Assembly: GCA_002803225.1 (NCBI GenBank)
Contig: NXFV01001493.1
Location: forward strand, 62,001 to 126,000
Source: Gamarada debralockiae
Taxonomy: Eukaryota > Ascomycota > Leotiomycetes > Helotiales > Hyphodiscaceae
Length of the DNA stretch: 64,000 nt
Reading direction: 5' to 3'
The number at the start of each line of letters is the position of its first letter. Position 1 is the first letter of the stretch. The notes under the pieces are model-generated. The model was not told the origin of the DNA, did no database searches, and was given only the letters and a program-made list of their open reading frames with translations. A program made the position numbers and the translations under genes. This document shows, one piece after another, positions 7,398 through 49,463 of the stretch.

Positions 7398-9130
7398 TAG
7401 AACTCGCGACAAGTCCCTCTCTCTACCGGAGAGTCGAAGTCGAGTATTGGAGAGTACGTTTGCTTGATAAGGTAGGTAGTTGGGAAGTGAGCCTTTCGGA
7501 CGGAGACGGCAGTTCTTAATTGTTGCACTTCGTGACAAAAAACATTTCCAAACGTACGGGCCTCGACCAGATATACAATTTCCAATTCATTACATATGAA
7601 TCCTTTGGCCAATCCATTACACATAAATTTTCGCCATCGTCTCTGCCGCCTCCAAAACTCTACTTTTGAATTTGGTATCCATGCAGAAAATACAGGCTCG
7701 GCGCTATTTGGCTGGTGATGATTGTTATTCGCTACGAAAACAACTTCTCACGGTATAGCGTATATACAGGGTCCATGTGTCAGCAGTTTTAAGGAGTATA
7801 CAAAGCATTAGTTAATGTGGAGAGGGAATGCTACCTGCAGCCAAGGAAGAGCGGAAAGGATTTTCATTTGCTACGAGCTTTTTTTTAGTCAGCAGCCTGC
7901 TTTACTAAGAGTTCGCGCCACCACATACCCCACCATTGTACACAAAGGTCAATTAAATAATAAACCGATTTTAAAATAAAGTTTATAAAACTGAATTTAT
8001 AAATATAACTTTATTTCCTATTACTTATGCATATAGTATTTAAAATTTTGTTTACAATTGATGGTTTTCTATATGCGTTTTATTGAAAAGCTATAAAAAA
8101 TCTAAGACTCCATGTGTAAATTAAGCGATTTTAAAACTTTTGTATTTTGTATTTATTAAAATTCTAAATTGTAAAAATGATAGGCAAAGTAAATTTGAAC
8201 AATACTCAACCAGCCCGCAAGACAGAATCTTCTCGAAACCGAATCAGAGTGCATCTTTTTGATCGACAGACTAACATTTATTCAAGGGGGGAAAGTAGAA
8301 TGACTTCTTGTTGTAGATTTATAACTAATCTTTCGGCTCCCTCTAGATACCGAATGGCTATCGGGTGAGGGTGGTCAATACACAAATCACCAGCAATACG
8401 CAAATTCTTATTATATCTTAATCATAAATCTAAACATAGTTTCTAAAGTAAGCTAGCGATAGCCTTTGTATATTGCTATTATACTTAGCTTAAAATTTTT
8501 TAATAAGTTAATATTTCGTAGTTATAACTGAGTTAAAAAAATTGGGTATGGGTTGCGCCTTGCTGGCTGATTTGCTCACCCAATAGGCGTTGCCATTGGG
8601 TGAAGTGGTGGGAGCCGAACGATTAAGTGAAAAGGGTGACTTTTGGTGTAAAATGGTGGGGAATGTAAACACTTACGTCTTCTTTTCTTCGTGTTCTGTA
8701 GAGGTGCCTGTGCCGCTTGTGGAACACAGATTCTGGCACCCACCATTGAGAGCCGCGCTTGAGATTTGTCAGCGTCGAGATAAAAGTCCCAGTCAGCGAA
8801 GTTATTGAGGCGCTAAGGAGGCGAAAAGGAGCACCGGACAGAGACAGAACGTGACTGAGGGACGTCATTGAAGAAATCCAAACAACCAAGAACGGAAGTT
8901 GTTCATTCCTTTGATGTACAACGTCATTTGAATTTCAATTTGCACAGCCAAGACCCAGCAGTTGTGGAAATTTTCGCCGAGCGTCTTGTCTCCCTTCGCT
9001 GTCTATCCCCTTTGCCATGGCGGGATAGTACGACTTGAGTTCCATACCCGACGCCGTCATAGCAAGATGGGGACTTGATTTCCAATCTAAATACATTTCA
9101 GCACTCAACCCCAGAGAGCACTGAGCACAA
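7398..9130. other. Intergenic region with two AT-rich patches
   Basis: No gene is recognised. The interval separates two minus-strand genes and holds two strongly AT-rich blocks, listed separately. The short frames at 8177-8368 and 8590-8889 have no recognisable content. Confidence 0.5.
7930..8180. other. AT-rich block
   Basis: The stretch is dominated by A and T, with runs such as ATTTATAAATATAA, in contrast to the moderate GC of its flanks. A second such block lies at about 8395-8545. In ascomycetes, blocks like these are often relics of repeats mutated by RIP, but no element end or coding relic is visible. Confidence 0.5.
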
Positions 9131-10562
9131 TCATGCCCACTTTCCGAGGAGAGCCATCAGCGCTGTTCCGAGGAAGAGACAGACAACCATGAAGGTGAGC
9201 CGCTTTGTACTTCTCGTCAACTCGGGATTGAACAAGAAGTCTCTGGCTAACAGCTCAACCAGCCCAGTATAGATCAAGATACCAGCAGATATCGAGTCCA
9301 AGACACCTGATACGACGTTCGCTGTGAAGGAGCCGCTGTTATAGGTGGTCCGCAAGCCAAGGCCGATGGCGACTGTGAAGGATCCCAGAGTCAGCATTGC
9401 TCATTAAGAAGAGAGAAGGCGCCTGGAGTTAAGATTTATGGGATCCCGAAATATGTCTTTAGTTACCAAAGAGATTCCCCTTGGGGTATGATTCGGGGCC
9501 AAATCTCACTACTTCGCACAAATCGGAAGAACATATCAAAGGTTTACATACTGGCAATTGGCGTAGTGAGGCCATATGCACTGCACAAGAACCATGGTAG
9601 CCAGCTGAGGCGCTTCGGGAAAGGGATGGCAGACATTCTCGCTCCAATTCCGAGACCTTCGAACGATTGATGGAAAACGAGGACCGGATATAGAGTGCTG
9701 AACTCATTGCCAGCAGTCCCGAGATTGAGGCCGATAATGACTGAGTGGAAGATGACCCCGAATTCGAGAATCAGGAAAGCGGCGATTTGCTCTTGGAAGG
9801 ACCGTTCTAGAATCTCCTCCGCGTTAGCTTCAGAGGATTTTTCCAGGTCTTCCTTGTCGACAACACCCTTCTCCACGGGGGCATCTTTTCGGGCCTGCGC
9901 TGCAGAGATTGCATCATGCATACGGTCGTCTTGGTCCCCGGAGTGTAGTTGATTATGAGTGAGAGATCGAGTCCTTCGATTTGCCAGTTCGCTCTCACTT
10001 CCAGGATGATCGGTGATGAGGACTTCAACGTTCTGATGGTGGTCGGTGAGATTGTGGGCGAATCCGTATTTGCGGTCCACGTATCTTTCAGCACCGAAAT
10101 CCATTAAAAAGATGAGCATTACGGAAACCAACGCGATTGCGGGTGGCCATGAGTACTGGGCCCACCCACCAGTCATTCCAACACACGTCTGAGGACCAAT
10201 TTCGTGGTACGCGGGGTCAAGGAGACTGTAGTTCAGTCAGTAAATTTGAAAGTTTCAAAAGATGAGGAGAAGGGAGGCACATACTGGATGAACGCAGTTG
10301 CTATAATAACTCCTGCACCAAAGTATCGAGCAAAAAGGTAGGCATAGATGTTGATTCTTACCCAACTGACGCGAGCCGCGACGACAGGAAAGAATGTAGC
10401 TGCTGAAGAGACGATGAGAATCACGAACAGTGCTGAGATTCGAGCACCCAGTCGGCCATTGTATTCGTTTTGCCCTTGAGTAATGAAGCAGACGACATCC
10501 CTTGGATCAGCTGTAGTCAAGTCGACGCTTGTGCCATCTCCTAAACCATAGTCTGAAGACAT
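9131..10562 (-). CDS. ZIP-family zinc transporter (Zrt1/Zrt2-like)
   Basis: There are three exons (10562-10285, 10225-9552, 9372-9131) encoding 397 residues. It is a plasma-membrane type ZIP transporter importing zinc, possibly also iron. Features in order: several N-terminal membrane helices with FARYFGAGVIIATAFIH then LLDPA, a long acidic/His-containing cytosolic loop rich in Glu and Asp, then the ZIP signature helices with HSVIIGLNLG (TM4) and FHQSFEGLGIGAR (TM5), whose His and Glu bind metal. Closing helices contain SGVLDSISAGILIYTGLVEL. The first intron is 59 nt. The second is unusually long (179 nt), and its 3' end resembles the introner-like introns of this window. The start at 10562 is the first ATG in the frame. 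Zinc-dependent control is expected for the family, but I did not identify a site. Confidence 0.88.
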
Positions 10563-12341
10563 CGCAAAGAGCAAGTTCAAAGACAGTGGTGCGATTTCAG
10601 ATTTCGAGGGTAAACGACACCAGAGGTGAGATGCAGGGTCTCTTATAACAGTTCATCTCTCGACAGGGTTCTGTGGGAATGCGGCACGGAAAAAGTAATC
10701 ACACTGGATGAACGAGTGGTCTTAGGTTTCGAGGAGCCCGGTATTTCGTAAGAATTGATGGGGGATGGGAGACAAAGCGACTATCAAAGACACCTTGATG
10801 GGCACGCTAGTAAAACGCGCAATGAGCATTTCGACGAAAGCAGCAACCTACATGGCACGTCTGATAAGCGTTGTACCACGGCACTACGGCGTTCCCGCAT
10901 CCTTCATATCCAGTAACTCGGAGACGAAGCCATAAAGGTTGGCGACTGCTCTCTATTAAGTGGCCGTGGACGGCGTCAACTCCGTCAAGGTTTCAATTGC
11001 CGATTCGCAGGCCCATCGCAAACTATGTCTAACATACGCTAGCAAAGTTACTTTTTCAAGCGCGGACCGAGCCAAGGGCTGCATCTTGGGAGGCAACTTT
11101 CTCTTCGTGTCACAAAAACACCTTGATGGGTACCTTACGCGCTTGGCGTTTTCCGGGCTTAGTTTACCCTATCATAATATTGATTTCGATAGACCTTTGC
11201 CGTTTGAAGACGATCGAGAGTAGAACGGAAGGCGTAAATGCTATTTGTACCTTGAGCGTGTGTCAAAATGGACCCGTTTTCAAAGCGGGCCGCTGCTTGG
11301 CTAATGGATCCCCTTGTGATTCCCCGCTCCTCCTTCAATCACCAAACTACATGTCTTTATATCTCAACCAAACCACGAAATTGTCGACTATCTCCTTAGA
11401 GGGAGGGATCTCCACGAGCTCTTTGGGTCGGGGGAGCCCCTACCCCCCCTTGGTCAGGCTTAATGGCGGTTTTTCCAAAGTAGAAGTAGGAATTGATGGC
11501 CAAGTGGGATGCCTAAAAGTCACTGTTAAGGCATTGTGTCAAAATTTGGGTGTAAGGGGAATTACCAGCCCGCTGCTTGATACCACGTGACTAAACTCTC
11601 ACGCTAATTAGCTCAGGGGGGACCAAATAAGGTTATAAGCACATAGATGGTACCTAATCTTAAGTCTATTTTTAGGCAAAATAAGGCATTGATCACTGAT
11701 TTTAGGCTGTGGCGCCTTGAGTTACAGGCTATTGATCACTAAATCTCATGCTATTACGGCCCTTTTTGTAACTGATAGGTATTAATTGCTAAGTTTCAAA
11801 CTGTGCCCTCCTGTGGTTACAGGCTATCAGCTACTAAATTATATTATTTTACTCCCTCAATTCTAGGCTGTATTATAAGCTACGGGTAGCCTCATGTTCA
11901 AGATATAAGCAACTACTCCTTGTATAGCAATGGTCCAACTTGGACCAAAAGCACCATTTAAGGTTATAAGATTGTATCTTATAAAGCAATTAATACGGTA
12001 TTTATCCCTAGGTGCTGAGTCCACCGCATTGATTGGGATAAAAGATATCAATCGCTCGATGAAGTTCAATGCAATGGAATTCGACAGAGCTTCCCGTAGC
12101 CCACCGGAGTCTTGACCCTTCGATCGACTTAAGCAATTGAACTCCTAGCTGTCCAGGGTTGTAGCTATCTAAAAATGTCTTTCCTCAGTGGTTGGAATAG
12201 CTTGAACGGTTGGCCTCTTATACCCCAATTAATGCGTTATCATTGTCAGATGAGAGATAGGTTTTGAGAAAAGATGAGGAGGGAGTAGGTGCGCAGTATA
12301 ATTCGGCGTTATTATGTCATTTCAATCATTCCACCGTTATA
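10563..12341. other. Non-coding interval with decayed tandem repeats
   Basis: No gene is supported. The frame at 11123-11590 is probably chance. A phrase ACACCTTGATGGG occurs twice (near 10790 and 11119), which suggests a small duplication. The right half holds the roughly 45-bp tandem repeat listed separately. Confidence 0.5.
11685..11909. repeat. Degenerate tandem repeat, about 45-bp unit
   Basis: Unit starts can be placed at 11685, 11727, 11778, 11822 and 11866, with spacings of 42, 51, 44 and 44 bases. Each unit opens with GGCTATT or a close variant and has an ACTAA-like core; the first three run into GTTACAG or GTAACTG. About five copies are visible, with substitutions and small indels. 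It looks like an old minisatellite. Confidence 0.6.
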
Positions 12342-15300
12342 TCATGTCTGCCTAGGAACCGCTCCATACCCGTAGTCCATATTTCCACCTCTTGGTGGGG
12401 ACCGGGCTAGATCGTAGTCATGCTCAATGGTGATACCTCTCGTTGTAGGAGAAGTCGGATCATATGCGTGCCCAGCACTTCCCCATCCAGGTTGTAACAT
12501 GGCCGCCCCGAACGTGAGCCTTCGCTCTTCTCCCATCATCACTGGCTCCTCATGCACCGGTTGTGATTGGTACTGTTGATGGCCATTATGGTACTGATGC
12601 TGTTGATAATTGTGCTGGGCAGGCGACATGTTGGTTGCTGTTGAACTGCCCACTGGTCTCCTCCGTGGGACCGCACGAGGGTCTAGTGGAGCTCTTCCCA
12701 TTCCAGATCTCTGATCATAACTCCTAACTGAAGGTATTGGAGCTTTTGGGCTGGGCGTCCTACTTCCCTCTGCCTGCATATCCGTCCTCACTCCGAGTCC
12801 TGTTCCCTCTCGTGGAGAATAGTATCCAGAATCTCGAGTTGGATCGAAGCCTCGCATACCATCCGCCTGCGGTTGTTGAGACATTTGGGATTGGGTAACG
12901 GTGTTCATTGGGAGCATGGCCCCTCCATTGTCAGTCTCGTTCGTGGTCACTCGATCGACAACAATGGCACTACTGAGTCGATCGAGTCGTATTTGGAGTT
13001 GTTCCCAAGAGCCGAGTTTCACATACCATTCGAAATTGTCGCCCCAACGGAGTAGTTTCAAGACGAACCAAAAGATGAGAAGTACTACAGGCTATCGGCA
13101 TGTTCTGTCAGTTTCGTTGCTTATGATGAATTGAATGATCAGCAACACTTACGCCAACATATGCAGACCATATATCTATATCCTTCTCGCCTCCGTTCCA
13201 CCAAGATGAAGTTGCAAACACAAATACAGTCAAGATACAAAATATAAGACCGAAGTAAGCGGGGCTAGATCGCCGGGGAGTAAGTAATTTACTAATCAAG
13301 AACGTCTCAAAAGCAAATGGAGTAATTGGAGTTGGGTAGGGAAATATCAGGAGTATATAGAGCACATGGCAGGAGAAATGAGTGAGAGCAGGGAGGGGGA
13401 AAACAAGAGCAGATGTTCCTTACATGGGCTGCAGCCAACCCAGAGTGGTCGAAAATGGAATGTGGGTATTATTCACAGACCAATGATTGTATTCTGGGTA
13501 GTCGTCGATAAGTTGACGGGCTTTACGGAACCTTCGTAACCTGGGTGTTCTGTTAGTAAGCCCCACGAGATGAGAAAGGGGGGTTCACTGACCACATTCG
13601 GTACCGTATGAAGGCTAGGCATTGAGCACCCCAAACCAACACAACAGCGACTGTTGAAACGCCACTCATAATCTCCTGTAAATCTAGATCAGAGGTCCCT
13701 TTGTTCAAATGCAGAAAAGGAACCCAGCAAAATGCCGCCGCAGAGAGGAAGAGTGCCGCAGCAGGCACTTTTCTGTGAGGTGTCGTCGTACTCAACCTGT
13801 AAAGATTCGGAGTCAGCAATTGCTGTAGATAGGTAGAAGAATAGAGCCAAGCGAGGCCCATGAATTTCAAAGTCCCACGATACCCTTTATAGGGTCAGGT
13901 CAGGCGCGAAGCTCATAAATCGGGCCAGAATCCAGAAGAAGTTGTCCCGAAATACTTACTTGGCAATCCACCACCAGTATTTATCATCGGGGTCGATCTC
14001 TCGAGTGAGTCCAAATAATGTTCTCGACGAGACGTAAAGTGCTGTGTTTGCGGCACTCAGCACAGCCATAATCAAACATCCATTGATGAATCCAGGTAGA
14101 GTGGGTATGCTGGCATTGAGAACAGCAATGACAAGAACCGAGCTGCTTTGCGTCGTGTTTGAAGCCGGTGCAAATGCTGTTGTCCCATGAGCTACTCGGC
14201 CAGACAGAGTAGGCAGCGAAGGGTCATTCCATGCCACGTTCAGATAGAATCCGAGAGCGCTTAGGAAGTATATGGCAGCAGTGAGCCAAGCGATGAGTTT
14301 TGCAGGATATTTGAGGGATTTTCGGGGGTCCTTGGCTTCGAGAGCTGTGACAGCAACGATCTCAACGCCGATGTATCCGAATGCCACGATGGGAATCGTC
14401 ACACTGAGGTAACAGTCAGCTACTTCTAGATAGAATAGATTCCATCAATGTTGAACTGACAGAACGGCTATGGCATGGTTTGAGGCCACCGCAGGATTGT
14501 TTTGGAAACTATCATTGATGTCTTCGAAAGAAAATCATTAGACACTTTGGAAGTATGCTAGGAGAGAGCCACTCTTACAAGTCGATTGAACCTCTAGAAC
14601 ACAGGGGAGTTAGTAATTTTCTATTCAAGAATGTCTCAAGAGCAAACCGGGTGATTTTCGCTGCATAAGGAAAGAGCGGGAATTAATGAAGTACATGAGA
14701 ATAAACACAAGTAAGAGCGGGGTGTATAAAGACAAAGAAACGATGTTCCTTACTACCGGTCGGAGTGTTTGCATGCGTGTCTACATTCAAACAGTTAGCT
14801 GTTACATCGAACAGGAATGAAAAAGTAGTCCCACTTTGATTGTTGATGACTGTGAAATCTCGGAGTCAGCAATCGCTCAATAGAGCTGAAAAGTTAGAAT
14901 GAGGCCGGTTTAACGAGATTGAAGGCTCCAAAGATGCCTCTCATAGTGTCGGAGTCGGGAGTAGAATACACTAATCCGACTAGAATGTGGAAAAAATGGC
15001 TCTGAAGTTACTCACTTAACATTGTTAGAAAGGAGCCAACGACGAGTGTGAGTTTGAGCAAGCCCATTATGGCTTCAACATTTCCGTACCACTATAGCCC
15101 GTTAGATGAAGCCATCCACTACCTTGAGAGATCTTTTGGCTTACCAACACTCCCAAGCAATTGATGGACAGTAAGAGCAGAGGCGCGCCGCCAATGAATA
15201 TGAAGTCTTGGAGAATAGGAGACCAGTCCCAGTAGCTTGCCTGCAGAACATCGGGGAGTCAGCATATTACTTCATCGGGAAGGACTTTGAAGTAAAAACT

Positions 15301-16001
15301 CATGAAACAGTCCCGAATAGGAATAAAATAACTCCCCGATGACTTACCAGGTTCGCGGCCGCAATAATCAAACTTGCAAAACTGATTGCATAGGCGTACC
15401 TGAGGTTCAGTGAGCCTCTCATCCTGACCGTTGGGTGAACCAGACAAACCAATAAGCAAGTCCCACTACAATCGCAAGGTCCTTATCCACAAATGCCTTC
15501 ACGAACTCGACCATAGCGTTTGCAATCGGCCAGTGGCCTATCATCTCAGCAATGCCTTCCATTATACATATCACGCCTATTCCCACAACTATATACGATA
15601 TCAAAGCTCCGGCAGGCCCTGCAATACCGAGAATTTCGCCACTGTTGTCGAAAAGCCCCATACCAATTGTCCCCGATATGACAATCAACTGCGATATGTT
15701 CCTCAGTCTTGTGTTTGGGACAGACTTCGAGCTCGCGAAAACTCACGAATATATGGATTGAGTGTAAGTCTCTCCTATTGGCAAAGAATTCTATTAGATT
15801 CAAGTCTCACATACTAGGTAAGCCTAGGCATACTTACTTTACGAGACGGTGAGCAGCGCCAGCAGGTAGCATTCCAGCATTATTCGCCAGTTCATGCGAT
15901 GACCGACTGCAGGGTGGCTCCGGCGTCGCATTGAAAGTTCCATTACTGAAAATGTTGAATGAGTTCCCTTCATCGTGAGCAGACTTTCTATGCTCCATCA
16001 T
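12342..16001 (-). CDS. Amino-acid permease with at least nine introns
   Basis: This is a minus-strand gene for an amino-acid/polyamine/organocation-type permease of the plasma membrane. The N-terminal cytosolic part (start 16001, MMEHRKSAHDEGN) leads into TM1 with ISGTIGMGLF and GPAGALISY. Later come WYAYAISFASLI, a central helix with FGYIGVEIVAVTA followed by EAKDPRKSLKYP, then SSRTLFGLTRE, the helix ending in FIRYRMW and the closing helices. The cytosolic tail is long and Pro/Gln/His-rich, ending in YGYGAVPRQT; such an extension is unusual in simple permeases. Five introns are repeated elements: 13265-13423, 13797-13959, 14594-14753, 14850-15015 and 15241-15347. One exon (14579-14593) is only 15 nt. 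The first junction (near 15700-15745) needs a non-preferred donor, so the model there is uncertain. Substrate specificity cannot be read from the sequence. Confidence 0.8.
13265..13423 (-). mobile_element. Introner-like intron, family A copy 1
   Basis: This 159-nt intron of the permease gene starts GTAAGGAACATC on the sense strand and ends in TACTCCCCGGCGATCTAG. It aligns along its length with the introns at 14594-14753 and 21907-22067. Shared blocks on the plus strand include an AGTAATTT-like end, GTCTCAA.AGCAAA, GAGTATAT.GAG and TGTTCCTTAC. Intron status is supported by the permease frame resuming on both sides (QPI-PAYFG). Confidence 0.8.
13797..13959 (-). mobile_element. Introner-like intron, family C copy 1
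   Basis: This 163-nt intron sits between the codons for IAK and LSTTTPHR of the permease. The sense strand starts GTAAGTATTTCGGGAC and ends ATTGCTGACTCCGAATC then TTTACAG. It aligns with the intron at 14850-15015, most clearly in the last 26 bases and in an internal CCCGATTTATG/TCGGATTAGTG block. Confidence 0.7.
14594..14753 (-). mobile_element. Introner-like intron, family A copy 2
   Basis: This 160-nt intron begins GTAAGGAACATCG and ends AACTCCCCTGTGTTCTAG on the sense strand. The true donor may lie 3 nt upstream (GTAGTAAGG). It is separated from the next intron by a 15-nt exon. Similarity to copies 1 and 3 extends through the whole intron and stops at both splice sites. Confidence 0.75.
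14850..15015 (-). mobile_element. Introner-like intron, family C copy 2
   Basis: This 166-nt permease intron starts GTGAGTAACTTC and ends GATTGCTGACTCCGAG then ATTTCACAG. It aligns with family C copy 1 at 13797-13959. Flanking exons read SFLTML on one side and INNQ on the other. Confidence 0.7.
15241..15347 (-). mobile_element. Introner-like intron, family B copy 1, hairpin ends
   Basis: This 107-nt intron lies between AAANL and ASYWDW of the permease. Just inside the splice sites it carries a perfect 11-base inverted repeat: CATCGGGGAGT after GTAAGT, and ACTCCCCGATG before TTCTGCAG. It aligns with the intron at 19612-19738 in another gene, sharing the ends and the inner TGTTTCA and GGAAGT-like blocks. 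Confidence 0.75.
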
Positions 16002-16447
16002 GACATAGTACAGAATGGAAATATCAGACGAAGGTGTCACTGCTAGCCTTACGTTTATGAGTTGCAAGAAACAGAAGTCCGTTGACCGGGGTAGAACAGG
16101 TGCAGTAAAGATATCTGTGGTGTTTGACAGCTGTATCCTACCAATCAAATGACAGCGGCCTGCAGCTGATGCAGCAGCCACGACTGCATTCAGATACAAC
16201 ACCATGCACTCCATTTATTGACACCGGGCACGCCTCGTTAATAGCCGGAAACTCCTAGCAGACTCGTGGGGTGGATCAGAGCCTCATTGTTTGGTTGTTG
16301 GTTGCTGGTCGCATCCCAAATATAAAACCACATGCTCTTGAAGTGTCTTGGTTTGAACACCCTTTCATCCCACCATCTACCACAGCACGATACCGAGTTG
16401 ACCGCAAGACATGGCCTTCTATACCTCATAGAAGACCGGTTCCAACC

Positions 16448-16814
16448 ATGCCGGACGTCGACAACGTCATTGAGCCAATATTGGCTTCATACATTGATCC
16501 AAAGAAGCTGCAGAGGCTTTTAGAAAAGATTTTCGGGCAGGAGATTGTGGTTTATGTGAGTGGACAGCAACTTGCAGCACTCGAGCGCAAGGCAAACCGG
16601 CTGTGAATTGTGGCTGACAATCCATGTCGTAGTCGAAAAATGGGAGGTTCACGTTCACTGCACCCAGAGAACTCACGGAGGTCAGTCTGCCCGACTTACG
16701 CAGATAACAGGAAAAGTACTGATTTGATTCTAGGAAGAACTCGAGTTAAGGCGTCCTCGAAGTCATATAATCCTACTTTGTTTTGCTGACCTTTTGCCTC
16801 TGTTAGATCGGTGA
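16448..16814 (+). CDS. Small hypothetical protein
   Basis: There are three exons (16448-16555, 16633-16680, 16734-16814) with GT-AG introns of 77 and 53 nt, giving 78 residues beginning MPDVDNVIEPILASYIDPKK. An in-frame ATG at 16271 would add 59 residues. The predicted protein has a helical charged N-terminal half and a short hydrophobic C-terminus (HIILLCFADLLPLL). It lies head to head with the permease, about 450 bases apart. No family is recognised. Support is the clean splice phase across three exons. Confidence 0.45.
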
Positions 16815-17076
16815 CCGAAGACGTTCAAGTTATCAACTAAGTCGTGGGTGTATAGAACATGGGGAGATAAGAGTTGCAAGAAGGATTGTGGTCGGGTAGG
16901 ACGGTGGAGGCTGTGTCAGCAAACTCGCGACAGCGGTCGAAGAGGAAGGAACAAATATTTGCCATACATATCTTAGTAAATTGGTTGATCGTCAACCTCA
17001 AACAAAAATCATATAGGTACCGTGCACGCTGCATAGGTAGGCTGAGTGAAATGGCGGTCGCTGAAATTCCATCAGT

Positions 17077-18600
17077 TTGGGTGAGGGTTCGATTGTGGGG
17101 CGGAGTCTGTCGAGTTTGTCCAATCATTGTCAAGTGACACAAAGGCGTTTTCGACTTTCTCGAGGCTCTCCAACATCGCCATCATCACCGTTGACTGCGG
17201 ATCCTCAAGTGTCGCGTATTCAGAGCTACATTAGAAGGTGTAGAATAAGAAGGAGAACGTTCGCGCTAATGTCATTAGCAGTAAACATTTATACATACCT
17301 CGATTGCCCTCTAGATCCAGACGAAAAGCTTCATTTAGAAGACGGAATGGAGGAGCCAGTGGAGAACCTATGGATTGAGTATGTTCGCCGTAGCAATCCT
17401 ATGAAGGTCAATGCCGAAGGGCTATCGAGGCGATTAAAAGAGCTTAGTCCGAAGCTATTCTGTCAGCCAGAAAAGATGCAGTTTGATATCTTGGACGTTG
17501 CGAGTAAGTTTGCTTTGCAAGGTTTGCCAACGCGAGCTGACATTCGTGCCTCCTATCCAGAAGCTACAGAGCCCAGTGACTCCAGAATTCGATCCAGCAC
17601 AGTGCATTCATTTGAGCAACTTGATGATTTCCTTTCTCAAAATGCCACCCCAGAGACTAGGTTCATGTGAGACCGCCCCGCCTTGGGAAATGGCCCATAC
17701 TAATATTTATTAGATCAATATGTGCTCCGAACTCTATCAAACCACTCAAGATTACCCACAAAGCGACGAGTAAAATCCTCACTCACATAACGTTGACCCC
17801 CAATTCCTAGATCTTCTCATGTCGTTTGCTACGGGTAGCAAAGAATCAGAAGTTGGCCCAGGGAGAATTGCTATGAAGCATCAATCCAATGGTACATACG
17901 GTTCGTCTTCTGCATCCGGGGCCATAAAGCGTTGGCTAAATTCAAAAATAGAAATGCAATATCGTCTGAGTTATGTGGAGGAAGTTCCGGGAGGGTTCGC
18001 GACTCGTCAGACAGGAGTTTTCCACCGTTTCGTTCCCAGTGGGCCCGGAAACCTCTGGATCTTCCTCAATCCTCGACCTAAGTCAACGCTCCAGACACGT
18101 CTTGAAAACGTCGTTCGAAAGCCCGACACAGGCAGAACCTCCCATCAAGAGTGGGTGCTGAAAGGAGTGAACTGGAACTGACTCCTGTGTACAAGCCTGG
18201 TGTGGCATTGAATCTCAAGAGCCAAGCCACTGCGGTGAAAATCAATCGCAATATTTGGAGCTTGACCAAAGACAGTGTCGACGACAACGCAACAGTCAGA
18301 CTACTGACAATAGTCACCCTGAGTAAGCTTCGTCGCGGTAAGTACCCGCTAGTGTGCTATTCCTCTCACGAGATGATGTGCTGATCACCGATCCCACAGT
18401 CCATCCTAGGCATGAATCTGTTCGCGTTCTCATCTGCAGAAAGCTCGACTTTTTCAAGTTTCGAAGCAATCTTGGGTCTTCACCGTATTGACGCTACCGT
18501 TGACCCTCATAACGGTTGGATCATGAGCAATCATGGCTCGCAAGCGCAGAAAGTAGAGAATAAAGGAGAGGGAGGAGCAGATATTGGCTGGTGGTGGTAA
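17077..18600 (+). pseudogene. Fungal CorA-like Mg2+ transporter relic
   Basis: Pieces of the large fungal CorA-like family occur in order. The N-terminal part runs to 17670, ending in PETRF. After a probable 47-nt intron comes ISICAPNSIKPLKITHKA, then a one-base frameshift within codons for TPN-FLDLL (near 17808). RQTGVFHRF and GNLWIFLNP follow. Next, the long central part of the CorA domain is missing, and VDDNATVRLLTIVTL and LGMNLFAFSS (the first membrane region) remain, joined by a GT-AG intron (about 18321-18400). The second membrane helix is lost. Intact members of this family carry a long soluble domain followed by two C-terminal helices. The frameshift plus the deletion make it non-functional as a channel. 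Confidence 0.7.
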
Positions 18601-18621
18601 GAGGAGGTCTGAATTCGAAGA

Positions 18622-21600
18622 CTATTTTGGTAGTTTAACCTCTTTAACCTCAAACTTCCCATTGCAATGAGCAATCAGCACCCGGACATGGGTAGCTGGA
18701 CTGTGAGCTGCCTCAACAACAACATCGCATGAATCTGGCTTCTCCAGATGATAGTCTAAATTCTCCTCTTCGGATAGATCCCCAAGAGTTCTATAATCGC
18801 CTGCCCTCTCGATGAGACCAACTGAAACTTTCGAGATCCAACGAAATTTTTTCTTGGAAGAGCGAATGAAAATAACAGCGTTTTCGTCGGGAGTTACTAC
18901 TACAGCCTGAAGTCCTTTCAGATGAGGATTGTTCGGGGGTTTTCCAGTGCTCGGTTTGAAAGGTTGAATCAGGGAGATGATGTTGTACTCTTTCCACAAA
19001 ATACAAATGGGCGACTTGGGAAAGTGTACAATTCGTTTGACGGCCTGGGTAGAATTATCGCTGGCGGGCTGAATGAGGGTTAATAACATATATGAAGGTT
19101 GTTGGGGCCCCACTCACTATCTGATGATCTATAATGCCTGTATTACTAGGATTCGAAACATCCCAGACCCTGACTCTATGGAGGTTGCTAGGTAAAGAAA
19201 ACCAGGCAAACGCTAGAGATCCAGTTGTACTGAACCAAACTTGTTGCAACTTTCCTGTTTGCTTGCCGACAGTCATCAACTCTTGTTTGGCATCGATACT
19301 GCTCTCGCTCGTAAGCTTGTAGGACTGTTAAAAATGGAGAATAATTTTACCATGATTGGTATAACCACACATTCTTCGCGCCACCTAGTAGCACCCCGCC
19401 ATCCTTAGAGACGGCGAATTTCTCAAAATTCGGAAGGTCCTCGTTGAAAAATAGCAACTCTTTCTCAAGTTCTCGATTGATGGTAGCAAGCTTGTAGACA
19501 TGAAATGGCTGATTGTGTTAGTATCAAGTCTCGGGTGGAGGAAGATCACGTACCTGGGTATTTGTGGAGCTGCAATGGCCACGCAGAGCAAGAAAATCGC
19601 CAGCCATGCATCTACGATCATCGGGAAGTCAGTATATTACTTCATTGGGAAGAATTTGGAGTAGATGCCCCCGAGACATGATTCAAGAGTTTGAACTCCT
19701 GAAACAGTCAGGAAAAGAAACACTCCCCGATTACTTACCCTTTTTCCCATTTACAACTTCTCGGAGCGTCTATCGTTTTTCTGCTGTATGGGCTGTATAA
19801 AGTAGACACAACAGCACTACTGGATGCAATGAAGGCAATTTTGGCCCGTGTTGACGACACTAGAGTCATGAATGTGTCTTTTGGTGTTTGAAAAGGTATT
19901 GTTTCGCCCCTATCATTTGTAGGGCCTGCCCCAACAGGAGGAATGGAAGATTGAATCGAGCTCTGTCTGGAACGATCTTGATGGAATATGAGTCCGGCGT
20001 TCGATGGAAATTCGAAAGCTTCTAATCCGGGCTGTGAATCTGCATATTGTGCCTCGATGGGAGGCCGTCTATAGTTGGCTGGCCAGAGTTCGGAGGACGC
20101 AGAAGTAGATGGCGATGCTGGGTGCTCGAAGCGTTCGTGAACTGGAGGTGGATACATGCGCGACGGTTCGCCATATGACTGCCTGTCCGCATCAACATGA
20201 CAGTAGACACTTGGCATAGTCTGTTGCTCAAGACGTTCCCAGTTATTTGGTGGCAGGTATGTCTCTGGAGATGAGATCTGTGCCCATCTATCCACCATTG
20301 CTGTCCGGCTAGAAGGGGACAATTCCTTGAAGCTGTCACTATCACGACCTTGATGCCAATAGTTCGACTCAACTGGAGCCTGGCGGTAGCTCAGAGGAGA
20401 TGAAAAGCTGCCAGAATATACGTTCACGACGGGCGATCGTGACGAAGAGGGTCCCGAGTCTGGAGTCGAAGTACTGCGAGTGGCTGCTGGAAATTGGCTG
20501 TACTTTTCCGGTGGTGGTGTAAGAGGTCGCTGTGGAGAAAGTAGAGGATTCTCAACGATACGGGGCATTGGCGTTCCCTGTGCTAAGTTTGACGACTTAG
20601 CAAAATTGTTCTGCTGTTGAGGAAATTGATCTATTGGATTCTCAGAAGGTTGATTCAGATCAGAAGATGATGAGGGAATAACTCGAATTTGCGGTGGGCC
20701 GTTGGCTGGGGCTTGGTGTCGGTTAGAATTGATGGGTGGACGTGATTGGTGAGAAGTAAATGACGAAACAGATTTCACATCGCTGTAGTATTGCTCAGCG
20801 CCATTGGCTATCCTCAATAATTCCTTCTGGAGTTGGTGTGCTTTGGGTCGCTCGTGTGGGGCCATTTTCAAAGCCTCCAAGATAAGATTCTTGCATTTAT
20901 TGGCACATTCAGTGTCTTTGTAAGAAAGGTCTCTGGGAAGGGAACTTTCTAGCCACCTCACGACTTGCGGGTGAAGATGCTGGCCACGGGGGCTTTCCTG
21001 GTAGAAGTGATCGTTGGTAGAGCCATCCTCAAAAGAAGCGCGCTTGTCATCCAACTCGCTGAGCAGCTTAATTCCTCCGACGCCTCTTACTAGTATCTGG
21101 AAGAGTATACAGCCGAAGGACCATATGTCACTTTCAGGGCCCACTTGATCCCCAATTGCTACTTCTGGGGCTGAATAAGCTCCGCCAGGTCGATTGGCGC
21201 TCACTCTGATACTGCCGGTGATGCGAGCCAGATAGTCGGCGGGGCTGGGAACTCTCAACATGGCGGGACTCTTCTTCCGAGCTCGCTCTTCTCGCTCCAC
21301 CATCGACGAGATTCCAAAATCGGATATTTTCCACCATCCAACGTGTGAAGCTTGCTGGCCGAGATAGACCAGAATATTGTCGAGCTTTATGTCCATATGA
21401 CAACAAACGACAATCTTCTCCTCTATCCGCAACCCTCCGTGCAGCCATTGAATGGCATCGGCCAGGTTCGATGCTTCGTTGACAAGATCGACCACTCCAT
21501 GACAGTTCGGTTCGAATTCCTTGCTATATAAGAAACCCTTCAAGTCGGTATTCGCGAGTGGCAGAAGGATGTTGAACTCATTGGATGATCCGAGATCATC

Positions 21601-22629
21601 CTTGTCTCCAATAGTGATGGCAGCTAAATACTTTACAATCCTTTCGTGGTTTGAAAGACAAGAATTGAGTTTCATCAGATTATGGGCCTCCTTCCGAAAG
21701 TCGCCCCGTGCTCGGAATCGCTTTCTCGCCACAGTAATTTCGTCCTATAGAAGTGTGAGCACAATTTAAGAAGTGGGTGGGTAAGTATCATACGCTGATC
21801 AAATCTAACTTGTACTCAGATTTGGGCATGAATTGATGGCAGGCGACGACTTCTTTGGTAACGACGCCAAAGCCGCCGGCACCAATATTGGAGCTTTTAG
21901 ACTTGACTAGATCACGGGGAAGTCAGTAATATCCTAATCAAGGATGCCTCAGAAGCAAACGCAGCGATTTTTCGCTGTTTTGGAAAAGAGCGAGAGTAAT
22001 TGGAGTATATGAGAGTAAACAGGAGTGAGAGGGGTTAGTGAGAAATCCAAAAATCGATTTTCCTTACCAAAAGGCAAGGGCCGCGCACGAGGATAGATCT
22101 TGCTGTCTCCCTCCTCCACCACGATGGGGATATAGGTGTATTGAACATTCAGAAAGTCTGAAGCAAAAGACATCCCTAAGAAAGAATCGTCTTCCAGAGC
22201 TGAGAGAGCAAAAGGCAATGAAGAGTCCTCACGGAGACGCCTTCTCCCTCCTTCCAAAAATACGTCCGCGAATCTTGACCAGTCATCCCATCGAATAGCG
22301 ACTAGGATTGATAACACCTTGATAAGGTTCTTGCGAATGTACTGAGCAGAATCTGTGTCGGAGTCTATGTCCAGTATGTCCAAAAATCTCTTTAAGCAAT
22401 CCAATGTCCATATTTCCTCGAGAGTCCTCAACGAGATGAACTTCTCACTGGGGTATTCGCGATTGTGTGTGCGCGATTCGAGCTTATCCCGTATTTCGTT
22501 CTCGCGAAGAAACCGTACAGCGTCTGCAGTACTACTCGACCGGCGTGGTCCTTGATGGTAGGAGACACTTCGAGGTTCCCCCCTCACTGGCTGTTTCCCC
22601 TTGTTCTTCTTCTTCCTCTCCCGGTCCAT
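18622..22629 (-). CDS. Protein kinase with Pro/Ser-rich linker and C-terminal WD40-like region
   Basis: The start is at 22629 (MDRERKKKNKGKQPVRG). Exons run 22629-22068, 21906-21794, 21744-19739, 19611-19554, 19508 to about 19351, then at least two more to 18622. The first ~190 residues form a helical N-terminal domain I do not recognise. The kinase domain follows: glycine loop GAGGFGVV, VARK, catalytic HMDIKLDN (HMD in place of HRD), SDFGIS, SAPEV and SDIWSFGCILFQIL. A disordered Pro/Ser/Gln-rich linker of some 250 residues follows. The C-terminal region contains CMAGDFLALRGH, SKDGGVLLGGAKN and VRVWDVSNPSNTG, suggesting WD40-type beta repeats. The junction near 19350 is unsure. Two introns (19612-19738 and 21907-22067) are introner-like. 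A regulatory Ser/Thr kinase is likely; the HMD change still leaves the catalytic Asp. Confidence 0.75.
19612..19738 (-). mobile_element. Introner-like intron, family B copy 2
   Basis: This 127-nt intron of the kinase gene starts GTAAGTAATCGGGGAGTG and ends TGACTTCCCGATG then ATCGTAG on the sense strand. The ends form an imperfect inverted repeat like that of copy 1 at 15241-15347. It is longer than copy 1 by about 20 bases in the middle. Confidence 0.75.
21907..22067 (-). mobile_element. Introner-like intron, family A copy 3
   Basis: This 161-nt intron of the kinase gene lies just upstream of the codons for the glycine loop. The sense strand starts GTAAGGAAAATCG and ends ATTACTGACTTCCCCGTG then ATCTAG. 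It aligns along its length with the two family A copies in the permease gene, which is about 5 kb away or more and unrelated. Confidence 0.8.
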
Positions 22630-24247
22630 GGCTATACGCAACGCTGTAGTAAGTGTGGATGAGCCCAATTAGGTAGCTCATAATCGAGGGCTTGCCATAG
22701 AACGGGGCAGTGTCTGCGGTTGTCGTGGAAGCCGGTCCAGAAGCCCTGATCCTTCACAGCACACGGTAGAGCGGAATCAAAGGAGCGCAAGAAAGCTCAA
22801 GTCGTAAGATCCGATCATTGGAAGAGGCATGAAGAGGTAGTAAATGACACGACGACCAAGACGGAACTTAAGAGTCCAGACTTTCAACGCGAGGCTGTCA
22901 ACGCAGCCATGTCAACCAGGATACTCTACCCGTCTGCTATTCGCTGGATAAGCGGAAATCTGGCACAGGACGGCTGGGTTGAAGCTCTCCAATCCATCTT
23001 GAAAGTCTTCCTGAAGCCCTGGATGATAGATTCGTACAACACTCAAATGGCACTATGGAGTGCGAATTGATGCAAGAAAAGAAATGTTTTGTGCCGTCGC
23101 GTCTTTGAGATGTTCGCCAAAAGGCGCGACAGGCTAGACAGGCATCACTGTCCGAGCTTCCGGTTTGCCTCCTTTCTGCTTACCCGACGTCTTTCATTCC
23201 CCGATTCGATTCCAAAGTGCTAATACTTCGTACTTGGTTGAAGCGTTTCCCCAGAGTCACGGCAAATACCAATTTCAAAGAGAGGAAACGATCTAGTGGC
23301 TGTGTTAAGGTCGTTCAACGAAGCCCTGAATCTCCAAAGTTTTACCGAAAGAAATTTTGACGAAAAGAAGGGAATCACGCTGTCTAGTCGCATTTAAAAC
23401 GAGGTCATATCTTTAATGGAGCTATGATACGGGTATAAGGAGCAGGAGGAATCGCTGATGAGATTACGGCCTAAAGGAACGCTGGGGTGGAAGTGTTTCT
23501 AGTCTATCCAGCGAGCCATTCAAAGCACTTTCTATACATAGGGTAGTTTCTCATCCGTGTAACTCGATTTTGTTACACCAAGATACTTGAAGAATAGCCT
23601 ATGGCGCCCATGCCTCATGTAAAATACGCTGCGGCTCAAATTTGATGACTTCACTTGTCTCCGTCGGTTGCGCAAGCTTGATGCGCGCCCAGTTGCGGTT
23701 TCTGGCTACGATAATGAGAACGACCTTTTCAAATGACTGGGTCATTCCCAGCCTTATGGTTTTTGACTCAACGGACCATTTCCCTTTTGTGTAGTTGAGT
23801 TACTCTTTTTGACTACCATACAAGCAGGCACCAGAGACCCTATAAGTATGGACAATCTGACATCATGGCGAAGGACCGAAAGCCACTCAGAACCACAGAC
23901 GTGCATAGGTGGCAAGAGAGCCGTATAGCCCTTAGCGCTTACTTCATTTCCTTTTTTCTTGCAAAAGATTTCTATAATTATTGCGAACATTAACAAGGTC
24001 AGCAATATACTGGTACCGAGCCGAAAGTTTCGGCAGGCTATTGCATAGCACCCGGCTTATCTCATCAGCCACTCGGCCCTCCATAGATCTTCAGGTACTG
24101 TTCACAGAGCAGTACTGAGGAGTGGTATATTGGTGCCGTACTCAAGTCTTCTTTTACACCAGCATGATTTCAAAATTCAAGCAGGCGACTCATTATAACG
24201 TATTTTCATTCTTCAATTTCGCTTGAGGCGTTCATAAAGCCTTAAAA
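22630..24247. other. Intergenic region, nothing recognised
   Basis: This divergent interval between the kinase (minus) and the monooxygenase relic (plus) should hold both 5' regions. The frame at 23754-24005 has no recognisable content. Confidence 0.45.
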
Positions 24248-41968: not shown

Positions 41969-44900
41969 ATGTCTTCATCCGAATCCGACGAATTTGAGGT
42001 GATTGATCAGCTAGAGGCCAGTCTCTCACCAGAAGAGCTTGCAAAAGTCCAAGCATGGCTTCAACCTACCGACTATGAAGCTCAGACGAGTGAATTCCAT
42101 CGCCACTTATGTTCACAGGCTCCTGGGACCGGCCTATGGATCTGTGAGACTTCAAAATACCAACAGTGGCAGAAGTCAGTTGACCATGGAAGCCTGTGGA
42201 TTAAAGGAGTCCCTGGAGCTGGGAAATCGGTGCTCGCAGCCTCGATAATAGAGCATATACAGAAGACTAAGGGTACTCCGGTCTTGTACTTCTTCTTTCG
42301 ATATATCATTTCAGCAAATAGACGTCCTCGGAGTCTCATTCGGGATTTCCTCGCACAACTGCTTCCCTATAGTGCTCGCCTTCAGGCAATGCTCCAACCA
42401 TTGTTAGGCACCATGTTGGAAGACTTTTCTGATGAGAGTTTGTGGGAACATCTGTTGACTGGTCTTTCTTCCATCGAAAAGGCTTATTGCGTGGTTGATG
42501 CATTAGATGAGATGGAACTGCTGCCTAACGATGGCTTCCTAGATCGACTCAACAATTTGGCGACCTTTCGACCAGACGTTGTGAAGCTTATAATGACAAG
42601 CAGACCAAAGCAGCACCTCCAAGGCAGCTTAAGGGATGCTTCAATTATTCACATCAGCCTTGAAGATGATCTAGTCGGGAAGGACATTCGCCTCTACTTA
42701 TCATACCGTCTGAAGAACCTCATTCCACAGGATGATCAGCAAAGATTAAGAGAGTCTTTGGTATCCGCTATATCTGAACGATCCAGCGGGCTCTTCCTTT
42801 ATGCACGACTTCTTCTAGATCAGATCATACCTAGCCTAGGATCGACGCAACCGGACGTCGAGAGACTAGTGAAGAATCTTCCTGTGGGCCTAGAGGAAAT
42901 GTACAACAGCATGCTCCTTCAACAAGCCGCGTCTCTCAAGATTGATATTCAAATCCAAGTCTTCCTTCTCGAATTAGCTACACATTCCTCTCGAGCACTG
43001 CGATTGAACGAGCTGGCAAGTGTACTGGCTTCCACTTTTCCACCTTCGATGATCCCAGAAACCCCAAAGTTTGTCGCAAGATCAGCATGTGCACCACTTC
43101 TTGAAATATTAGAAGATGAGACGGTCCAGGTTATCCACCACTCATTTACTGAATTCCTGTTGAACGGCGAGCGAATCAGTGTTGACATGTACGACCACAC
43201 TCCACAATTTCCCGTACTCAACCCCGACAAAGTCCATAAAAAGCTGTCGGTCATCTGCTTGGACTATTTGAGATCTGGTGGTCTCAGACTAGAAAAAGCT
43301 GTTTTACAACACGAAAGAGACGAGAATTGTGCCCATGACTGCAACGAGGGTGCAGCCTTTGACAGCAACGATAAGGAAGCGGAGAGATATAATTACCAAG
43401 AGGCAAAGTTACGCCATCCATTTCTACAGTACGCAGTTGGTAACTGGACGTTCCACGCCAGCAAATACGATTTCGAAGATGATGATTTCTTCCAATCAGT
43501 TGCAGGCTTCCTAGACCCCAAGAGCATCGATTTCAGGAAGTGGTTGGAGATCGAGTGGATGAAAGGACCAGAATCTTCAGAGTTCCAGTCAGTTGCAGGC
43601 CGCCTAAGCCTCAACAACATCAATATCAGGAAGCGGTTGGAGAGCGAGTGGATAAAAGAACCAGAATCTTCGGAATTTCAAGCACCAACTCCTCTGCATA
43701 TCGCCGCATTTGCTGGTCTCACAACATATGCCAAAAAGTTGATTGAAGGAGAACTCTCAGTGGATCCTCGTGACGCCGAAGATCGCACACCATTACACTG
43801 GGCCTGCGCACGAGGCCATACCTCAATGACCTCACTTCTGCTCAAAAGTGGCGCAACCCCTGATGCAGAAGACTGTCGAGGCGTGAAACCCATCCACGAA
43901 GCAGCGAGGAAGAACCATGCGAGCATTGTGAGGATGCTGCTCGAAGCTGGCGTGGATCCACTCACTCCGAAGACACTCGAGAATCACAGATGGATGCTGC
44001 TGTGCGGCGATGTATCAACGAAGGGAGAGACGGCCGTCGAATATGCGTACCTTCAAGGCCACACGGATACAATAATGATAATGCTACCATTTATCACACC
44101 AGAAACCTTGGAAGAAATGTTCTGCCAGTGTTGTCGGTACGGAAAATTTGAAGCCGTGCGAGCTATTCTTAAGACGACTAGCTTGTCGCCCAATTCAAAA
44201 TCTAGCGGTGCCACTGCTCTCTACCTTGCGTGTCGAGCTCAAAGTGTTGGTATTGTGGAGTTACTGCTGGCGAAAGGAGCTGATGTGCATCAGACTTCAG
44301 AATGGCGGGTGACGAATAGAAACTGCTGTGGTAGCCGCATGCATGAGGAGCCATTGAGAACACCTATTCATGCTGTCGTTATTGGCTGGAAGAGTGCTAA
44401 TAACATTGCGTGTCAACAAGTCTTACGTCTGTTACTCAATGCTGGCGCAGACATTGAAGTAAAAGACGCTAATGGGGATACACCTTTACTCAGCCTCTTC
44501 GCTAAAGGGGGCTCTCCCGACAATGTTGTTGTCAAGGGCCTTTTGCAGGCGGGAGCGAATGTGCTAGCGGTTGATAGGAATGGCGATTCCGTACTCCACC
44601 GCTGTCTTGATGGCTCACATGATATCCAAATCTTGAAGTTTCTCTTCGAATATGGAGCCCGTGCCGATTTCGTTGGAAATGATGGGGACACCATTATGCA
44701 TACAGCGTTAAAAAATACTTATTGGAATGGGAAATCTCAATGCGCGTCCGTTATTAATCTTCTTCTGGGAATGGGGGCACGTTGTGACGTGAAAAACAAG
44801 CATGGCCTCGCTGCAGTGGAAGTCGCAGCTAGCAACTTCTACTGCAGCTTGGAAACATTTACAGTGCTGCTTCAAGCCTGTTCTGATGTAGATGCGCTCA

Positions 44901-47900: not shown

Positions 47901-48659
47901 GCCAATCCCTTGGTAGTTGATAAAAAAGGCCGGAACGCCCTACACCACCTCCTCGATAACCCTGAAATGGAAGAAGATGCAATAATTCAATTCCTTGCCC
48001 ATGATGCTGCCAAAACCTTGCTCCATCAAAAAGATGAAAATGGTTTCACACCCCTTAATTGCGCACTACGTTTCCTCCGTCCTGCGGTAGTTGAGGTCCT
48101 TCTCACTATGGGTACAGACTTATTAAGTCCCGACCCGACAGGTGCAACGGCACTGCATCACATAGCAGCACAGTGTCTAAGTGTTGAACCCTCGTCAAGC
48201 AGTCATTCTTATGGTCGTAGTCACCAGCCTGAATATTATACCGGTCTCCTCGCCTTGTGGAAAAAGTTCCTTGCCCTCGGTGGCTCCATTAACGCCCGTG
48301 ACAACAAAGGGTCGCCACCACTCTTCTCCTACCTCTCATCTAGCCAAAGAGATGACTATAAAGCCCCTGAAGACAGCTGTTGTCATCTTGAGAACTTCGC
48401 CTCTTATTTCTCTGAAGAAGTGACCAAAGACCTCGACTTCCATGCCAAAAATGAAAATGGAGAGAATGCGTTGCACATCATTGCAAGGCGAGAGAAAAAT
48501 CATTATACGAAGCCGAAGCATGACAAAGGGTTGTATGAGTTTTTTGTGGGAAAGGGACTGAATCCGATGGAGGAGGATGATAAGGGAAGGAGTAGTTTGG
48601 ATACTGCGGCTGCTTGTGAGCAGAAGGGTATTTTGGAGTTGTTTCAATACGAGAAATAG
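41969..48659 (+). CDS. NACHT-ankyrin repeat protein (NLR-like)
   Basis: The model has four exons (41969-45208, 45273-45526, 45740-45941, 46074-48659) with phases that match at every junction, giving 2,093 residues. A short N-terminal region (about 1-55) is followed by the NACHT NTPase: Walker A GVPGAGKS at residues 80-87, RSLIRDFLAQLL, Walker B VVDALDEM near 175-182 and a TSRP sensor motif. A winged-helix-type segment (HHSFTEFLL) comes next. From about residue 568 to the end there are many ankyrin repeats, such as TPLHIAAFAG, TPLHWACARGH, GRTPLHDACTSGR and ETPLHIACTG. Fungal NLR-like proteins of this design act in heterokaryon incompatibility or are proposed to sense non-self. Introns of 213 and 132 nt interrupt the ankyrin part; a two-gene model is possible but less likely. 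An internal 93-bp duplication lies at 43490-43675. Confidence 0.85.
43490..43675 (+). repeat. In-frame 93-bp tandem duplication in the NACHT-ankyrin gene
   Basis: The units 43490-43582 and 43583-43675 both start FQSVAG and end GPESSE or EPESSE, 31 residues each, immediately before the first ankyrin repeat. Several substitutions separate them, clustered in the middle (FLDPKS versus RLSLNN). Confidence 0.8.
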
Positions 48660-48913
48660 TTTGGGTGGTATTTTTGCAGGATTTTCTTTTCCAGTTAGTG
48701 GTGAGCGAGATGGGGTGCTTGGGTGATCAGAGAATGAGGAAACTACGGTATGTTTTCGGGATGTGAATTTGGATTTCTTTTTAAATGATACAACGGCAAT
48801 TTTACGGTCCTCAGTGAGACTCATCCTTTCACGTGCGACAACCTAGAGCAGCTAATGCAGGGTCTAACCATTATAGTGCTAGAGCACCAAAAAATATGGG
48901 CAAAACATACAAG

Positions 48914-49463
48914 AGCGCTAGCCTACGGCTCGCACGAAGCCTTCGCACTTTCAGAAGAGAAAGCCTAGTGATTAAACAGCTCTCGTGGCTATAAAGTCCC
49001 CAAAAAAGCTCGATGGAATAGAGCGATTATTAAGCGAAAAGAGTTAGAATCACGTGACTATAATATATAAGTATTTTGTTTAAGTAGTTACGATTAGCTT
49101 AAGGAGTTATATAAACAGATAAAGATAAGGAGGAGAAGCTATTTTTAGCGTCAAGTAAATATAGTAGGTGATGTTCAGACCAATTTAAACACAAACATTT
49201 ACAGCTAGAGATATATGGCTGTTCTCAGAAACACTTAAGGAAAAAAACGTGACATAGTCCTGTAGGTAAGTATAAGATATACGCCTATTCTCAGAAACTC
49301 AAAAAATTATATAAGCTCAGGTCGGACTAACTTAGACCCAGTTTTCGCTATTGGAAGTTTCTGGTAAGCTTTTCGAAGCTCCTTCTATTCTTAGCAAGCT
49401 AAGAAGTACGAAGGCATAAAACCATTGAGTGTTCACAACTGAAGCCGATTTCGAACTTTACTA
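48914..49463 (+). repeat. Dispersed repeat, copy 1
   Basis: It begins GCTAGCCTACGGCTCGCACG and ends with CTGAAGCCGATTTCGAAC, then TTTAC. It contains landmarks shared with the other copies: AATCACGTGA.. AATATATAAG, ATTCTCAGAAACTCAAAAAA, GGACTAACTTAGACCC and TTAGCAAGCTAAGAAGTACG. It is non-coding and AT-rich. Many differences from copy 3 are transitions. Confidence 0.75.

Follow-up and report, generated by a model that had tools for sequence, protein, structure and literature searches.

Introner-like introns of three repeated families in neighboring genes of the fungus Gamarada debralockiae

Why do introns in unrelated genes of a single fungal genome resemble each other? The origin of new introns is a long-standing question, and few lineages have been caught in the act of gaining them. 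We analyzed a 64,000-nt stretch of the Gamarada debralockiae genome (the window; G000:C717:62001-126000, in a genome of 54.3 Mb and 1112 contigs), for which an original prediction had claimed that seven introns in a permease gene and a kinase gene form three introner-like families. We found eight introner-like introns in three neighboring genes, belonging to three repeated families (A, B, and C) and all located on the minus strand of the window. The seven claimed introns are all present with the boundaries proposed for them, on the minus strand and running from GT to AG; an eighth, a family C intron at 9373-9551, had been missed. These introns are almost certainly introner-like elements (ILEs), that is, spliceosomal introns in which the intron itself is the unit that moves. 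Copies throughout the genome, sense orientation within genes where this was tested, and orthologues that lack four of the seven introns all agree with the introner-like reading put forward in the prediction.

Related introns in the window

The eight introns are listed here with the E values that they received from hold-out hidden Markov models (HMMs), which were trained without the window copies.

9373..9551, minus strand: eighth element, family C, 179 nt, ZIP transporter gene; E 1.1e-10 over 9381-9531
13265..13423, minus strand: A1, family A, 159 nt, phase 2 (gene model), permease gene, GT..AG; E 2.7e-33
13797..13959, minus strand: C1, family C, 163 nt, phase 2, permease gene; E 5.4e-22
14594..14753, minus strand: A2, family A, 160 nt, phase 1, permease gene; E 7.5e-36
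14850..15015, minus strand: C2, family C, 166 nt, phase 1, permease gene; E 9.9e-27
15241..15347, minus strand: B1, family B, 107 nt, phase 0, permease gene; E 3.6e-14
19612..19738, minus strand: B2, family B, 127 nt, protein kinase gene; E 1.1e-22; folding z -3.12
21907..22067, minus strand: A3, family A, 161 nt, protein kinase gene; E 1.1e-34

As predicted, A1, A2, and A3 aligned with each other from end to end, at 68 to 74% identity, and pairwise BLAST within the window showed that B1 and B2 have both ends in common. C1 and C2 shared a BLAST match of only 18 nt, around the branch point. On within-window BLAST alone family C was not convincing, and it was established only via its copies in the genome. 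Such a short match is compatible with chance likeness conferred by common splicing signals (donor, branch point CTGAC, and acceptor), an explanation whose probability we consider negligible because the hold-out HMMs scored all eight window elements at 37 to 119 bits, compared to a best score of 9.8 bits in 20 dinucleotide-shuffled windows. The training copies (32 A, 18 B, and 21 C) had first been located with queries and patterns from the window families, so the independence of the models lies in their training and does not extend to discovery. The claimed kinship of C1 and C2 was borne out by these models, as was membership of the A and B introns in their families. Only four other matches were detected in the window at E <= 0.01, with scores of 11.5 to 14.6 bits; they fall within the eight elements, three lying on the strand opposite, and reflect the likeness between A and B and the inverted symmetry of B. 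A search of positions 9000-22700 against Rfam returned no match at the gathering score to group I or II introns or to any other RNA.

Copies across the genome and their setting in genes

We searched the genome with patterns for sequence blocks, allowing up to three mismatches, and used reversed patterns as controls. The pattern for the 3' end of family A had 37 matches (32 A and 5 B elements), inner A blocks had 19 and 21, B blocks had 19 and 21, and the 5' end of a B subfamily had 4, with no matches for any of the reversed controls. The two C blocks had 59 and 55 matches, and their reversed controls had 0 and 3. The patterns other than that of the second C block are 22 to 28 nt long, and their counts of 4 to 59, with zero in the reversed controls, are likewise at odds with chance likeness. 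When we left out the B-subfamily pattern, the union of pattern matches comprised 173 distinct sites, a copy count in favor of the prediction; not every site was read, a few of the 55 matches to the second C block may be due to chance, and the A label in this union includes the five B elements caught by the A pattern. Chapman estimates of copy number were 43, 65, and 54 for family A (three pairs of A blocks), 39 for family B (standard error [SE] 5.5), and 197 for family C (SE 33), giving a capture-recapture total of approximately 280 to 300 copies, a rough figure that assumes independent blocks.

In 220.7 kb of merged sequence, window included, we delimited 105 elements (47 A, 24 B, and 34 C), eight of them in the window. 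Median pairwise identity was 71% in family A, 62.5% in family B, and 54% in family C. The closest B pair is 95.6% identical, which is the maximum within the B subfamily whose members start with GTACGTATTGGGGGAGC. Family C is both the largest and the most diverged of the three families. Over the last ~50 nt, A and B are weakly related (E 1.5e-4 to 0.01 when the B model is run on A copies).

Among the 82 full-length elements, 79 have both GT and AG ends, and similarity between copies starts and stops at the splice sites, which extends across the genome the splice-site-to-splice-site likeness claimed for the window. These 79 (what remains of the 105 after removal of 23 partial elements and 3 that lack GT or AG) were used to analyze ends, target-site duplications (TSDs), and folding. 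Their acceptors are CAG (37), TAG (35), AAG (6), and GAG (1), and lengths range from 141 to 164 nt in family A, 103 to 166 nt in family B, and 134 to 179 nt in family C. Read by eye, the 3' ends of all three families carry a branch point (CTGAC or variants), then TCC, then the acceptor. In three family A copies that are full-length, AG is missing at the usual end: L028 (C264:32076), L041 (C518:58798), and L007/L042 (C716:214064), which end in CCA, CCAT, and CCAC, respectively, the last also being without GT. These copies have either decayed or are spliced elsewhere.

We detected no TSD in 357 tests of offset and length on the 79 elements (best z 2.98). The exon bases beside the elements are near random, with few exceptions when tested against 0.25: an A precedes family C elements in 16/24 cases (p 2e-5) and a T follows them in 13/24 (p 0.002), a G precedes family B elements in 11/20 (p 0.004), and a T follows 35/79 elements of all families (p 1.5e-4).

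The prediction that the flanking exons are unrelated held for the larger set. When we compared the 150-nt flanks of the 105 elements by BLAST (plus strand, E <= 1e-3), every match was between neighbors at one locus, except for a single match of 23 nt. Sequence similarity alone would also fit old introns that were made alike by later insertion of an internal repeat or by gene conversion between introns. We regard this as very improbable, given that the similarity is bounded by the splice sites, the flanks are unrelated, and four of the introns have no counterpart in close relatives, as described below.

Sense orientation inside genes, which the prediction had proposed to check, was found where we tested it. 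Joined flanks of 66 nt were open in 46 of 53 cases (26 of the 79 elements were excluded because a flank was under 66 nt), compared to 4 for the unspliced sequence, 29 for the antisense strand, and 38 and 34 when one or two bases were dropped. The stronger test of genic sense orientation is whether a Pfam domain runs across the junction. This was the case, in sense, for 14 of 20 joined flanks, picked by eye from 29 with long open frames; two had a one-sided domain and four had none. The Pfam families at the junctions differ between elements. In addition, all nine multi-element stretches outside the window have their elements on one strand. By Pfam, the genes that contain elements include those for KIN17, PDS5, and phosphatidylserine decarboxylase, which are usually indispensable.

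The elements are also clustered. Outside the window, the sites of 15 pairs are less than 2.5 kb apart and those of 10 pairs less than 1 kb apart, compared to 1.31 and 0.52 expected under random placement over the whole genome; restricting placement to genes would perhaps raise the expectation twofold. One stretch of 1.7 kb holds elements of families B, C, A, and A, with the C junction inside an LtrA domain, and a sugar transporter gene holds one A and one B element. The PDS5 cohesion gene (L123, G000:C118:47400-48700) has three family C introns in ~900 bp; the C model aligns with the middle one as two overlapping segments, as would be expected if an internal block had been duplicated. In the KIN17 gene (PF10357, PF25095), a pair of back-to-back B elements encloses one A (G000:C1088:50842-51107; L122, L088), and the reading frame GFK-M-HTQSESH needs both B elements and the intervening A removed together. 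We considered this pair, the only one examined, as a [D1,2] stwintron (spliceosomal twin intron) and rejected it, as T, not G, precedes the first donor.

Sites without the introns in relatives

The genes and ordinary introns that enter the comparison with relatives are as follows.

9131..10580 (approximate), minus strand: ZIP zinc transporter gene (PF02535), which holds the eighth element
12407..16189, minus strand: amino-acid permease gene (model, both ends uncertain), recognized by PF00324 and homologues
18622..22629, minus strand: protein kinase gene (model, 3' end uncertain; PF00069), which holds A3 and B2
19509..19553, minus strand: ordinary kinase intron of 45 nt, into which relatives without B2 read
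21745..21793, minus strand: ordinary kinase intron of 49 nt, where relatives without A3 or B2 break too

The identities proposed for the permease and kinase genes were confirmed by their intron-removed models, which carry PF00324 and PF00069. The permease model has five introner-like introns of three families in addition to ten other predicted introns of 44 to 63 nt, of which some are doubtful. Ordinary predicted introns in the kinase model measure 45 to 52 nt, compared to 127 and 161 nt for the introner-like ones. The eighth element interrupts the ZIP transporter between TPIA and IAIGLG (spliced frame read by eye). The best named homologues all come from Leotiomycetes: Mollisiaceae (60%) and Phialocephala (58%) for the permease, Bisporella (58%) for the kinase, and Tricladium (76%, among the matches listed) for the ZIP transporter. 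Mollisiaceae, Phialocephala, and Tricladium belong to the Helotiales.

We read 5 of 44 permease homologues, 5 of 47 kinase homologues, and 8 of the 120 ZIP homologues listed (of 4372), covering the sites of A1, A3, B2, C1, and the eighth element. The A1 site is empty in P0004, where 29/30 residues are identical with no gap, and the C1 site is empty in both P0004 (30/30, no gap) and P0013 (24/30). P0004 (88% identical, on a 2671-nt contig) continues across one ordinary intron and enters a second, and therefore represents unspliced DNA; P0013 is 74% identical. The B2 site is empty in P0045 (35/38 residues; 89% identical, on a 395-kb contig), P0046 (31/38), and P0047 (32/38; these last two 83% identical), all of which then read into the ordinary 45-nt intron. 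Likewise, P0063 (78% identical) lacks A3, matching 31/46 residues with no gap before it reads into the ordinary 49-nt intron. At the A1, A3, B2, and C1 sites, the relatives neither gain nor lose a residue, and ordinary introns nearby are kept. P0046 and P0092 start with V, which would fit gene callers that do not splice and that write a GTG start in this way. Two further homologues, P0001 and P0007, have no ordinary introns at all, probably come from transcripts, and are uninformative about empty sites. In P0013 we also observed an in-frame read-through of ~60 codons between DQD and LQEIMS, where the window permease gene has no intron; this is perhaps a different insertion in that relative.

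The site of the eighth element has another history. The alignment stops there in four relatives of 85 to 88% identity (P0179, P0189, P0205, and P0206) and is uninterrupted in four of 76 to 77% (P0092, P0096, P0098, and P0180). We compared the read-through tails with the families, taking the maximum of 240 shuffles as reference. The tails of P0205 (40.4; shuffled-C maximum 30.9; also 36.9 with B) and P0189 (32.5; shuffled-C maximum 28.9) fit family C best. The tail of P0206 fits B copies (37.5) better than C copies (30.5; shuffled-C maximum 31.0), and judging by that tail P0206 has the eighth element in position only. P0179 is too short to show more than a stop of the frame at this site; P0179 and P0045 are probably from one relative, with an intron at the eighth site and without B2. 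The prediction of recent gain is supported, with a refinement: orthologues without the intron, for which it had proposed to look, occur at four window sites; family C is not purely recent, because the eighth site is already interrupted in relatives of 85 to 88% identity.

Route of spread and relation to known introners

Judged by sequence symmetry, near-terminal inverted repeats are present in family B, weakly present in C, and absent from A. B copies fold better than shuffled sequences (mean z -2.85, 14/20 below -2) and C copies slightly better (mean z -0.87, 2/24 below -2). When we scored the 5' end against the reverse-complemented 3' end, B reached 17.3, C 13.25, and A 10.46, compared to shuffled means of 11.06, 10.42, and 10.73, respectively. 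The arms are GGGGAG/CTCCCC and TCTCGGAG/CTCCGAGA, the 3' arm being located after the branch point and before the acceptor. A perfect near-terminal stem of 10 to 11 bp occurs in 2 of 20 B copies and one of 4 to 7 bp in the other 18; B1, in the window, has a near-terminal inverted repeat of 11 bp and a folding z of -5.32. Elsewhere, a weak family C match beside an amino-acid permease domain (L008:1909-2042, C74:51394; E 1e-3) is strongly self-complementary (folding z -4.58); it may be a C element of ancestral-like type or represent a fourth family.

Inverted repeats are a feature that non-autonomous DNA transposons would share. Under this explanation the elements would resemble the introners of Micromonas and many aquatic protists that are like miniature inverted-repeat transposable elements, moved by transposase through cut and paste, with splice sites carried along or co-opted. 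The near-terminal repeats of B and, less so, of C, the match of the B model to the reverse strand of B copies, and the site preference of C are all consistent with it. Nevertheless, we consider a DNA transposon unlikely: there is no TSD at any tested offset, the reading frame neither gained nor lost a codon at the four empty window sites, the two splice sites coincide with the ends of the element, neither being taken from the target, and family A has no inverted repeat. Moreover, all 37 matches to the A 3' end are recognized A or B elements, in a survey that was not aimed at transposases or at longer elements whose ends have diverged.

We lean instead toward an RNA-based route, either reverse splicing or capture of RNA at DNA breaks, because the elements end exactly at splice sites, insert without duplication, and lie in genes in sense orientation. 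RNA capture at breaks is proposed in excerpted text of PMC12403724. The spliced-out intron RNA would be the traveling form; either of these two means would place it, complete from end to end, in the DNA of a transcribed gene, where it would then be copied into DNA. The unit would bring its own donor, branch point, and acceptor, so that a new copy could be spliced at once and, for that reason, survive selection. In B and C, the near-terminal inverted repeats could pair the intron ends, and such pairing may shield the excised RNA or keep its termini together. Family A, without such repeats, may be a derivative that shares the 3' end of B, or may use the same machinery. That ordinary introns beside the ILEs are kept argues against gene replacement by a full spliced cDNA.

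Several points count against this account. Splicing at GT and AG is inferred from reading frames and homologues, and the RNA intermediate from element ends, insertion, and orientation. The frame test is weak because the flanks were only 66 nt long, and exchanging partners among them left a mean of 39.8 of 53 open, with a maximum of 46 in 200 exchanges. At any single site, loss in the relatives could have taken place instead of gain here, and the base preferences beside the elements could equally come from a DNA integrase. Family A gave no folding signal (mean z +0.42, 1/35 below -2). Among the reversed, uncomplemented controls of the inverted-repeat score (B 13.25, C 9.71, A 9.89), that of B is itself raised, and folds with a predicted terminal stem of 5 bp or more are found outside B as well (18/20 B, 15/24 C, and 18/35 A copies). 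Finally, RNAalifold predicted 17 pairs for B, one of them changed on both sides, and none corresponding to the terminal stem, in an alignment with ragged, poorly aligned 5' ends; because this gave no support, the structure claimed for B rests on single-sequence folding and inverted-repeat scores.

ILEs of Dothideomycetes (Fulvia/Cladosporium fulva and Dothistroma) were reportedly described by van der Burgt in 2012, and Huff is said to have described DNA-transposon introners of Micromonas in 2016. The elements studied here are of a known kind, ILEs, and form apparently new families. According to excerpts of PMC4457414 (Collemare 2015), Dothideomycete ILEs are likewise repeated spliceosomal introns in unrelated genes, with several families per genome and species-specific content, and two elements in one gene have been reported, 145 to 626 bp apart. 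Compared with them by description only, the present set differs in that one gene holds five elements of three families and in the near-terminal inverted repeats of B and, weakly, C. The ascomycete introners of Gozashti et al. 2022 (PMC9860276, in excerpt) are likewise biased toward genes, and those of Alternaria alternata have no TSDs and insert directly; the ascomycete families are stated there to be without terminal inverted repeats, which B clearly and C weakly have. The DNA-transposon introners of Micromonas and other aquatic lineages, as excerpts of the same paper describe them, are likewise mobile units that turn into introns, yet in many cases they are flanked by TSDs and borrow a splice site from the target, and we saw neither. 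The strings "Leotiomyc" and "Helotial" are absent from the main text of PMC9860276, and the present families may be in its supplementary species list. Among the titles and abstract openings of open-licence literature, we found no description of ILEs in Leotiomycetes; PMC5639578 covers single old stwintrons, Leotiomycetes included, and the word introner is not used in its excerpted text.

The stwintrons of Xylariales (PMC12403724, in excerpt) resemble the present elements in anatomy, with (near-)terminal inverted repeats whose 3' arm likewise lies between branch point and acceptor, seamless insertion without TSD, and sometimes two elements per gene. They are nested [D1,2] twin introns or derivatives of these, whereas the elements here appear to be single canonical introns; type-2 cropped introns of Xylariales, according to the same excerpts, are canonical introns that spread too. 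By eye, the published NTIRE-10 letters GUAUAAAAAC are unlike either pair of arms found here. It is conceivable, if rather doubtful, that B and C are single canonical introners that independently converged on the architecture of Xylariales sister stwintrons (a near-terminal stem with its 3' arm between branch point and acceptor). If they did, the stem would be the common mark of a general ascomycete pathway in which end-paired excised intron RNA enters broken or transcribed DNA; such a pathway would hit the same genes repeatedly, and ordinary introns could be recruited to it. From outside the Xylariales, our data add to the doubt, already voiced in the excerpted PMC12403724, about the claim that ascomycete introners are without inverted repeats. 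One genome with three families of differing divergence, together with close relatives that have empty sites, means that the insertion mechanism, the choice of site, and clustering can be tested through comparison of a few related genomes.

Farther along the window, at 41969-54267, are three large ankyrin-repeat genes, one of which has an NPHP3_N/NACHT domain. A further NPHP3_N gene, at C717:7894, carries a family A element.

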